Below, in pieces: positions 4,884 to 6,954 of a stretch of DNA of 41,094 nucleotides. Source of the stretch: an uncultured Opitutia bacterium (lineage in GTDB: Bacteria > Verrucomicrobiota > Verrucomicrobiia > Opitutales > UBA953); NCBI GenBank assembly GCA_903850885.1, contig CAINMU010000125.1:1-41094 (forward strand). Direction: 5' to 3'. Every line of letters starts with the position of its first letter. Position 1 is the stretch's first letter. A program made the position numbers and the translations under genes. The notes below the pieces were generated by a model, which was given only the letters and a program-made list of their open reading frames with translations, was not told the DNA's origin and ran no database searches.

Positions 4884-6296
4884 TTAGATACTCTCGGCGA
4901 ATTTTTTAATGATGCCGCCGAAGGCGCCGTTGGAGAAGAAGATGACGCAGCGAGGTGATTCATCAGATTTCACCAAAGATTTCAGTTCGCTTAAAAGTGC
5001 GTCATGGGAAGCCGGAGCGAAACCCTTCTTGCCCGCCTGCGTGATTGCAGCGGCCACACCCACGCTATCGAAACGCTCTTCGCCGAGCTTCTCGGCGCGA
5101 TGAGGCGGAGCCAAGAAGACCTCATCGGCCTGCTTGAGCGCTTCACGGAAAGCATCCTGCATCACCTTGCGAGCAGCGGTGTTGCTGCGCGGCTCAAAGC
5201 AAGCGACGAGGCGATGCTTAGGATAGCGGACGCGCAGGGATTCCAACGTCAGGTCGAGGGCCGTCGGGTGGTGTCCAAAATCTTCGATCACCGTCAAGTT
5301 GGGGCGGTCGACGAGCACTTGCTGACGGCGCTGGACGCCTTGAAACTTATCAAGCGCGTTCAGTTTCAGCTTCGTCGGATCTTGACCATCCAGTAAAAGA
5401 CCGGCCGAGACCGCCGCCATCGCGGCATTGCGTGCATTGAACAGACCGGGCAAGGCCCACTTCACCCTGCCCCACTCCTTGCCCTTCCAGAGCAGAGTGA
5501 ATGACGAGCCATCCGCCGACTCCTTAAAATCGGCGATGACGGTGTCGTTGGCCGCGCTGGTGCCGACGCGGACGACGGGGGCCCAGGTGATATTCTTTAC
5601 CAGCCCGAGCACGTTGGCGTCATCGCCATTGACCACAATCGCACCGTCACGCGGAACGATTCGGAGTACGTGAGAAAACGTGCGGAGCACATCATCGAGG
5701 TCGCGAAAGATGTCCGCATGGTCGAATTCACAATTATTAACCGCCAGGATGTGCGGCAGGTATTGGATGAACTTACTCCGCTTGTCAAAAAAGGCCGTAT
5801 CGTATTCGTCGCCCTCGATAACAAAAGGGCCGTCTTTGATTCCCGGGTCTGAAGAATCGGGCAAATCGCGCGGGACGCCACCGACCAGCCAGCCCGGCTC
5901 GGCGCCATTGGCCTTGAGCAAGACGGCCGCCATACAAGTCGTTGTCGTCTTCCCATGCGTCCCAGCCACTACGATGTTTCGACGTTCATTGAGGAGATGC
6001 GTTCGGAGAAGTTCGGGCAGCGACAGGTAACGCTGCGTACGCATTTCCAAAAGCCATTCGACCTCCGGGTGTCCGCGTGAAGCGATATTCCCGACGACGA
6101 CTAGGTCGGGCTTGATTGACGCTAACCGTTCCGCAGACCAGCCTTCGAGGATATCTATCCCCGCGCTCCGCAGATGGTCTGACATCGGCGGGTAGATGCC
6201 CGTATCTGAGCCCATGACTTCATGACCAAGCGCCCGCATCAGCAAAGCCGCATTGCCCATCGCCGTCCCGCAGATGCCCATAAAATATATCCGCAT
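4884..6296 (-). CDS. mpl: UDP-N-acetylmuramate:L-Ala-gamma-D-Glu-meso-DAP ligase Mpl
   Basis: Cell-wall recycling enzyme that attaches the salvaged tripeptide L-Ala-gamma-D-Glu-meso-DAP to UDP-MurNAc. It has the N-terminal GICGTAMGNAA dinucleotide-type loop, the Mur-ligase ATP loop GTHGKTTT (residues 112-119), VIEGDEYDTAF in the central domain, and the C-terminal FGHHPTAL and CFEPRSNT motifs. The last two are characteristic of Mpl rather than MurC. It implies Gram-negative peptidoglycan with meso-DAP and an active recycling pathway. The gene is transcribed on its own, behind the terminator at 6373-6408. Its leader has no Shine-Dalgarno sequence and instead reads CTCCTC on the mRNA strand. Confidence 0.95.
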   Translation of the reverse strand: MRIYFMGICGTAMGNAALLMRALGHEVMGSDTGIYPPMSDHLRSAGIDILEGWSAERLASIKPDLVVVGNIASRGHPEVEWLLEMRTQRYLSLPELLRTHLLNERRNIVVAGTHGKTTTTCMAAVLLKANGAEPGWLVGGVPRDLPDSSDPGIKDGPFVIEGDEYDTAFFDKRSKFIQYLPHILAVNNCEFDHADIFRDLDDVLRTFSHVLRIVPRDGAIVVNGDDANVLGLVKNITWAPVVRVGTSAANDTVIADFKESADGSSFTLLWKGKEWGRVKWALPGLFNARNAAMAAVSAGLLLDGQDPTKLKLNALDKFQGVQRRQQVLVDRPNLTVIEDFGHHPTALDLTLESLRVRYPKHRLVACFEPRSNTAARKVMQDAFREALKQADEVFLAPPHRAEKLGEERFDSVGVAAAITQAGKKGFAPASHDALLSELKSLVKSDESPRCVIFFSNGAFGGIIKKFAESI

Positions 6297-6372
6297 GGGG
6301 CGATAAAAGAGGAGATGGGACCAAGGGCGAGAAAGTTACGTGAGGAACTCCGGAGGCCCTTGCTTATCCCCC

Positions 6373-6408
6373 AAAAAGAAGGCCCCCAGCTGACTTCAGC
6401 TGGGGGCC
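6373..6408 (-). terminator. Rho-independent terminator downstream of hpf
   Basis: A perfect 12-13 bp GC-rich inverted repeat (6381-6393 with 6396-6408) closes on a very short loop. On the minus strand it is followed directly by TTCTTTTTGG, a U-rich tract. Orientation and position make it the terminator of the hpf transcript and of the possible RNA behind it. It also separates them from mpl. Confidence 0.9.
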
Positions 6409-6424
6409 TGTACTTGCTTCTTCC

Positions 6425-6593
6425 GACGGTGCTAACTTGGGCTTTTGCTGCCTGCTGATGACTGACCGTCCGTTACTCACCGACGTCCTCACCGGCTTTC
6501 CATCTGTTTTTCACTGATTTTTAGCCCGTTCTGACTTCGTGCTTTCACCGACCTATCGAGCCCTCGCCGGCAACCGGCTTACTACGCACCGTC
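6425..6593 (-). ncRNA. Possible structured RNA between hpf and its terminator
   Basis: The 190-bp stretch after the hpf stop codon has no convincing reading frame. Its two ends are perfectly complementary over 8 bp (6425-6432 with 6586-6593, GACGGTGC/GCACCGTC). Inside lie a 5-bp GC hairpin with a 3-nt loop (6566-6578) and a further nested 5-bp pairing (6439-6443 with 6559-6563). The motif CGGTGA occurs three times on the minus strand, with one near-copy (CAGTGA). A strong minus-strand terminator follows. This layout fits a small RNA, or a 3'UTR-derived RNA released from the hpf transcript. It does not show the SRP, tmRNA or RNase P signatures I looked for. A 6S-like role is only a guess. Confidence 0.3.
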
Positions 6594-6594
6594 C

Positions 6595-6954
6595 TTACGC
6601 CGCCCGCCCTAATTCGCCTAGATCTGTCGGATGCGGATGATTCCTTTTTTCTTTTTCTAGACGATGGCGCCGACGAAGTTGGCGGTCGACCTTATCGACC
6701 AAAAAATCAATTGATTTATATAAATCATCGGACTCTTCCCGGACCACGATATCCGGGCCCGGTAACTCCAGCCGGATTTGGGCCGCAAACTCGCGACTAT
6801 GGTCGCTGCAGCGGGTATGGACGAGCTCGACATGCACGCGGACGATCCGCGGGTTGTGGCGCAAGAGTCTTTCGACTTTGGCGCACACGGTTTCTTTCAG
6901 GGCATCGGTGAGGTCCATATGGATTCCTGACACGACGATCGGAGCACTTGTCAT
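6595..6954 (-). CDS. hpf: Ribosome hibernation-promoting factor, short HPF/RaiA family
   Basis: Ribosome-associated sigma54-modulation/HPF fold protein that binds the 30S decoding region and inactivates ribosomes in stationary phase. From the ATG at 6954 it has 119 residues. They show the beta-alpha-beta-beta-beta-alpha pattern: an IVVSGIHMDLTDALKE start, a basic helix with RLLRH, a strand with VRVHVEL, and the basic tail DRQLRRRHRLEKEK. It lacks the long-form C-terminal dimerisation domain. The frame is open upstream to 7176, but that extension runs antisense through the neighbouring dehydrogenase gene and has no family character. An ATG at 6996 is the only other reasonable start. The gene is divergent from the SDR gene with only 40 bp between starts. 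Confidence 0.9.
   Translation of the reverse strand: MTSAPIVVSGIHMDLTDALKETVCAKVERLLRHNPRIVRVHVELVHTRCSDHSREFAAQIRLELPGPDIVVREESDDLYKSIDFLVDKVDRQLRRRHRLEKEKRNHPHPTDLGELGRAA

Follow-up and report, generated by a model that had tools for sequence, protein, structure and literature searches.

A rod-shaped RNA element directly 3' of the ribosome-hibernation gene hpf in one genus of Opitutales

Few structured RNAs are associated with ribosome-hibernation genes. The raiA motif RNA, or ModT (RF03072), is a structured non-coding RNA that often adjoins a raiA/hpf gene; it is described as occurring in Bacillota and Actinomycetota, as having a complex tertiary fold, and as having raiA for its commonest downstream gene (PMC11706538). 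Other RNAs that invite comparison with the element treated here are OppZ and CarZ, small RNAs (sRNAs) described as lying in the 3' untranslated region (3' UTR) of their host mRNA (PMC7398697); 6S RNA (RF00013), to which the element is similar in its length near 180 nt and its long irregular hairpin; and the decoy RNAs of the RsmY/CsrB type. The element lies in a 41,094-nucleotide stretch of DNA from an uncultured Opitutia bacterium (contig CAINMU010000125.1 of assembly GCA_903850885.1), which is called the window below. It occupies positions 6425 to 6593 of the minus strand, where fold prediction and comparative alignment delimit a rod-shaped RNA whose 5' end is one base past the stop codon (TAA, 6595-6597) of hpf, the gene for the ribosome hibernation-promoting factor. 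Tentatively, it is read as a structured RNA in the 3' UTR of the hpf mRNA, and one that probably persists as a stable, protein-binding fragment.

The element matches no catalogued family. Within the 185-nt non-coding interval between hpf and its terminator (6594-6410, minus strand), Rfam gave no family at gathering score, nor any near its cut-off at E <= 10, and at E <= 1 it gave none on the rod of four relatives; a sub-threshold suhB match in locus L106 (E 0.36) covers the terminator and spacer and is off the rod. ModT itself was unlisted in both searches. Unlike ModT, which usually precedes raiA as described in PMC11706538, the rod sits after hpf, and it belongs to one genus of Verrucomicrobiota. 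An earlier note on this DNA had suggested a 6S-like RNA, an assignment that had to be rejected, since the Rfam 6S model finds nothing in the interval, whether at gathering score or at E <= 10, and the same genome has a 6S candidate at another place. That candidate (G000:C28:13368-13531, 164 nt) scores 40.7 bits, below the cut-off of 46.4; 6S matches at E <= 1 occur in 27 of 37 members of the genus, six of them above the cut-off. The likeness to decoy RNAs is limited to a weak, chance-level RsmY match (E 0.098; 16.1 bits, with the cut-off at 57), and against it stands the failure to find CsrA in any of the 19 genus members searched; the protein turned up in three of 29 genomes overall, all three from other families. 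Hfq was found in none of 29 genomes, 19 of which are of the genus and include the window's own (96% completeness), while five of 14 control genomes were positive. Both common sRNA partners thus seem, from these genomes, to be missing, and neither CsrA nor Hfq was retained as a partner for the rod. A place between the stop codon and the terminator of an mRNA, as befits a 3'-UTR-derived RNA, is seen here in 35 of 48 loci, with the terminator identified in the window. In contrast to OppZ and CarZ, no pairing with hpf stands out, Hfq was not found, and the rod offers little single-stranded sequence. Among the matches listed in a search of literature titles, in which subscription papers lay outside the scope, no such RNA was named in Opitutales.

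In the window, the minus strand of the interval is predicted to fold as a single long rod. Its minimum energy is -64.4 kcal/mol (z -5.0), a value that none of 200 shuffles equalled; with the terminator included, the energy is -95.6 (z -6.8), and the rod and terminator are predicted to be separate folding domains. Several pieces of this structure had been picked out in the earlier note. The 8-bp complementary ends are indeed present and form the closing stem P1 of the comparative fold, in which the 5' strand (GACGGUGC, 6586-6593, minus strand) pairs with the 3' strand (GCACCGUC, 6425-6432, minus strand). The internal GC hairpin (GCCGG-UUG-CCGGC, 6566-6578) is likewise where it was said to be; most of its bases pair into the rod in both the best single-sequence fold and the comparative fold, so in these predictions the rod draws on the same bases, and the hairpin is a local alternative pairing for them. 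CGGTGA was found in three minus-strand copies (6545-6550, 6489-6494 and 6477-6482) that overlap helices of the rod; among 4091 overlapping minus-strand segments of 185 nt, 11 contain at least three copies. The note had cautioned that such short pairings could partly be chance. That doubt does not hold for the structure, which goes beyond chance by the shuffles just given, and the individual pairings are better seen as parts of one larger whole. A purine-rich, poorly conserved linker (6410-6424, minus strand, from the alignment) joins the rod to the strong minus-strand terminator that had also been noted. This is an intrinsic terminator stem-loop (6380-6409, minus strand), then a T-rich tail (TCTTTTTGGG), and its stem, read from 6409 to 6380, has 13 pairs, 10 of which are G-C. 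A simple scan returned three terminator-like sites in total where 3.8 were expected, and because this total does not exceed expectation, the call rests on the length of the stem.

Evidence that the pairing is under selection comes from relatives of the window. A structure of 40 pairs in eight helices, taken mainly from L106, was placed on a sequence-only alignment of 26 sequences from two clades, A and B. Standard pairs occupy 96.0% of 1023 cells, and controls in which the structure was slid pair in 16-45%. Two-sided changes are seen at five pairs and in nine cells, against shuffle means of 2.1 and 2.4 (values reached by 9 and 0 of 500 shuffles, respectively), and the covariation score lies above all 500 shuffles. 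The strongest test of selection on the fold is a strand-specific bias in the changes. By parsimony, the stems have undergone 35 A>G or C>T changes, which keep the pair as G-U on the hpf strand, and 14 G>A or T>C changes, whereas outside the stems the counts are 40 and 58 (p = 0.0005 for the contrast). In addition, there are 57 G-U cells and 13 A-C cells, and the changes per column amount to 0.84 in stems and 1.89 elsewhere. Across the 171 sequence pairs of clade B (19 sequences), the distance per site is 0.146 in the rod as opposed to 0.369 at four-fold sites of mpl, the gene downstream, with 0.075 in stem columns and 0.195 in the others. The corresponding distances are 0.067 for the rod, 0.143 for terminator plus spacer and 0.361 for four-fold sites within clade A, and 0.274, 0.373 and 0.536 between clades A and B. 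Furthermore, the RNA-strand z is negative in 28 of 28 copies (-1.4 to -4.5, above -2 in three), and the energy is below that of the antisense strand in 27 of the 28; the antisense z is the lower in five. Taken together, these results lead to the conclusion that the fold is maintained as an RNA of the hpf strand. The earlier note had put forward a possible new small RNA here, to be refuted if neither covariation nor conservation reached beyond the terminator; conservation is not confined to the terminator but takes in the element itself, which has retained its pairing through substitutions, so that this refutation fails and a structured RNA element is supported.

Several observations weigh against so simple a picture. 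Further pair types are no more numerous than in the shuffles, 105 of 500 of which reach the observed number. A tree-aware re-pairing control reached the observed pair retention in 12 of 1000 runs and the observed double changes in 77 of 1000, and the covariation terms of RNAalifold are near zero; covariation by double changes is modest. Within clade B, terminator and spacer together show a distance of 0.155 and are as constrained as the rod; consequently, slow change alone does not single the rod out. Finally, the element seems dispensable: on a tree of mpl (45 rows, after three carriers with short mpl fragments were dropped), presence of the rod changes at least five times, two of the changes being forced by well-supported branches, and with outgroup rooting the tree looks like an early gain in the genus followed by several losses. 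On the available sequences, the element looks useful but dispensable.

The rod is built of helices of 2-6 bp broken by 1x1 mismatches, mostly purine-purine, and by small loops. P1 reads GAC-R-GUGC/GCAC-A-GUC in most rows of clade B and GAC-G-GUAC/GUAC-A-GUC in most rows of a third clade, C, so that between the clades GUGC/GCAC is replaced by GUAC/GUAC, an exchange of G-C for A-U. At the other end, the comparative fold places an apical hairpin, AUC-A-GU(GAAAA)AC-A-GAU (6502-6518, minus strand), which in most clade B rows is GUC-G-GU(GAAA)AC-A-GAC, with a GAAA tetraloop as its tip. The module GUC-R-GU/AC-R-GAC occurs three times in clade B. In the A/B alignment, the mismatches are purine-purine in 20 of 26 rows at columns 5/169, 21 at 27/144, 23 at 47/125 and 25 at 81/91; in clade C, six of the seven mismatches are purine-purine in 8-10 of 10 rows, and the seventh is mostly A-C. 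As regards a large central bubble like that of 6S RNA, no loop of the placed structure is bigger than about 7 by 5 columns, and the fold of the window's sequence alone has loops of up to 7 by 8, but the RNAalifold A3 consensus has one of 11 by 11. One relative, L084 (the same RNA as G025:C35:11798-11956), has lost about 20 nt of the 5' arm between GUCRGUGA modules, and its predicted fold re-pairs around the deletion.

How such an RNA would be made is suggested by its surroundings. No sigma-70-type promoter-like site was found inside the element in a scan limited to that type, and since the rod begins one base past the hpf stop codon, an origin in the 3' UTR is likelier than an independent gene. 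Moreover, mpl has an upstream element of its own, and the rod is therefore most simply the 3' UTR of hpf. Transcription from hpf would pass the stop codon into the 160-190-nt rod-forming sequence and end at the strong intrinsic terminator, upstream of mpl with its own promoter-like element. The rod would thus be co-transcribed with hpf, and its highly structured 3' end could outlive the coding part and remain behind as a stable RNA some 215 nt long. Such an RNA would be present when hpf is made, i.e., during slow growth. Because of the fold, the constraint on pairing above that on loops, and the missing Hfq, we infer a stable protein-binding RNA or RNA domain, whose main mode of action would be to bind a protein or ribonucleoprotein by way of the regular purine-purine mismatches, rather than to work as an Hfq-dependent antisense RNA.

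Much of the same evidence fits a near-equal rival, which explains nearly as much and is itself quite possible. Here the rod would be a cis element that only protects the hpf mRNA or times its decay and has no life of its own. In all matches followed, the rod is attached to hpf, about one base past the stop and before the terminator; the lack of a promoter-like site inside it is as expected, and an RNA that keeps its pairing as its sequence changes needs no sequence-specific partner. However, relatives without the rod retain, as judged by eye, a terminator-like hairpin alone, and a terminator stem by itself would block 3' exonucleases. The predominance of purine-purine mismatches also asks for more than a plain stem.

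An independent, trans-acting antisense sRNA gene, with its own promoter and pairing with target mRNAs, possibly hpf itself, has also been considered. A terminator does close the element, and the best duplex site in hpf, at +39, is near the start of the gene. Nevertheless, over 29 species the mean duplex energy at this site (-22.7) is surpassed by that of sites in mpl (-24.4), and pairing with the hpf start region was accordingly set aside as not special. With Hfq not found, no sigma-70-like site inside, and the unpaired segments forming the less conserved part of the rod, an antisense gene is very unlikely.

Attention is also drawn to the gene on the other side. The mpl-like murein peptide ligase gene (4884-6296, minus strand) starts 298 nt past the hpf stop codon; its protein has three Mur ligase domains, and its best NCBIfam model is TIGR01081 mpl, at 381.1 bits slightly below the cut-off of 388.7. 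Since every one of the 35 carriers has mpl following on this strand, the rod might be a leader or riboswitch that responds to some signal and sets how far transcription continues past the terminator into mpl. Against this, the rod and terminator fold separately, the element sits at the hpf end of the gap, and the motif upstream of mpl is retained, by eye, in gaps that have no rod. A riboswitch for mpl is therefore not favoured and is hardly probable at all. The motif in question (CTCGCCC ... TTTTAT; 6303-6331, minus strand), recognized by eye in a comparison of loci, ends 6 nt upstream of the mpl start codon and is perhaps a promoter with a very short leader. By the same reading, both halves stand upstream of mpl in carriers of the rod, and in the 12 rod-less loci whose gap sequence was read, CTCGC is present in all 12 and TTTTAT in four.

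The element has been traced within a single genus. BLASTN (E <= 1e-8) detected it in 11 of 57 genomes, one of them the window's own, and all 11 belong to the window's genus. A first covariance model, built from 19 sequences of clades A and B, raised this to 24 of the 57 at E <= 1, again all within the genus, and matched the window alone among 387 genomes drawn across the phylum, a draw that held only three genomes of the genus. When hpf was searched for in GTDB r220, 66 loci were obtained, and the first model matched the window and 34 of these loci directly 3' of the hpf stop. Clade C (10 loci) had been absent from the training set, and all 10 members were found by the A+B model (E 1.6e-8 to 0.013). 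With clade C added, a second model matched 34 of 79 genomes of the family. All 34 are among the 55 genomes of the genus, many of which are incomplete, and the 24 genomes from four sister genera gave no match. Run with strict filters on 372 genomes of the order, this model matched 36, of which 33 are in the genus and three elsewhere. Of the latter, that in G571 is a (GGACRGTC)n array and not an orthologue, and two are weak, the model fitting those in G039 (E 0.013) and G532 (E 0.09) only with more than 50 positions cut out, the G039 match also overlapping predicted open reading frames of the opposite strand. Three further weak matches, G026:C388 (E 0.18) and G031:C87 (E 0.6) in the same genus and one on the other strand of L136 (E 0.5), were taken as chance and excluded from later alignments. 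The window's genome has no second copy at E <= 10. A mobile element was considered and rejected, as no match was seen in phages or plasmids at E <= 0.01 and no relative of hpf in viral contigs. Two other genomes do have two hpf-rod copies each, with different rod sequences on different contigs (G029, C18 and C58; G021, C2 and C27), through either duplication or a mixed bin.

The surrounding order of genes is equally regular. In a set of 49 loci (the window and L082-L129), 48 have both hpf and mpl, and 35 of these 48 show the order hpf stop, rod, terminator, mpl. The gap between the two genes is 259-299 nt in 35 loci and 99-127 nt in the other 13, and those short gaps that were read by eye contain a terminator-like hairpin and no rod. 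Among 34 same-genus loci of the first genome set, 28 gaps were long, five were short and one was ended by a contig edge. The assemblies with close hpf loci are mostly named Opitutae, Opitutales or Verrucomicrobia (including UBA953, UBA957 and UBA7397), several of them after lakes, and a few bear unlikely species names; on the basis of these names only, we infer that the genus lives in fresh water.

A further possibility concerns the origin of the rod. Self-complementary tandem repeats of the type (GWCR)n fold by themselves into rods of 3-bp helices with purine-purine mismatches, and the element could be a drifting relic of one. At least two GWCRGWC words are present in 34 of 36 rods (up to seven, against shuffle means of 0.2-0.9), the exceptions being L082 with none and L095 with one. 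L121 has a weak 8-bp tandem array of 3.5 copies, and tandem arrays of the octamer RGACRGTC exist elsewhere in the order, in G571 (G571:C19:93-180, L158) and in G056 (C66, C154 and C158); the G571 array, (GGACRGTC)n, is predicted to form a rod of 3-bp helices with purine-purine mismatches, the same kind as the element. The slow change of terminator and spacer in clade B, no faster than that of the rod, also suits a relic. On the other hand, no tandem array was detected in the window, and the 5-unit pattern was met once, in the rod-less G156, among the 55 same-genus genomes of 95 searched; a reversed control of the pattern gave single matches of the same order. Drift, moreover, does not give a rod whose rate of change is 40% of that at four-fold sites, stems that are the slowest part, or strand-specific changes. 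As the whole story, a drifting relic is thus weakened and unlikely, although judging from the repeats it may still be the origin of the rod.

If the tentative reading of a persistent 3'-UTR RNA were extended, the element could be an independently evolved counterpart of ModT and 6S RNA: a stable rod RNA made with the hibernation factor, free of Hfq and CsrA, whose ladder of purine-purine mismatches is offered to the hibernating ribosome or to a protein, and which was born within the genus from a self-complementary tandem repeat. So complete a picture is improbable. Nevertheless, the rod occurs in a genus where neither Hfq nor CsrA turned up, and that one genus allows both the possible origin of the element in a tandem repeat and its apparent repeated losses to be followed, which makes it an example of how structured RNAs come into being in bacteria.

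The hpf gene itself (6595-6954, minus strand) is an open reading frame for a 119-aa protein of the HPF/YfiA family, with profile scores of 70.4 bits for TIGR00741 (cut-off 40.9) and 71.7 bits for PF02482 (cut-off 23.7). Its synonymous divergence among carriers is uneven. RNA structure was rejected as the cause of the low values in the first half of the gene, where five species gave no low-energy signal against codon shuffles. By blocks of 10 codons, four-fold sites diverge by no more than 0.01-0.14 from codon 1 to codon 50 and by 0.08 over codons 81-90; the remaining hpf blocks lie at 0.26-0.45, and mpl averages 0.41.
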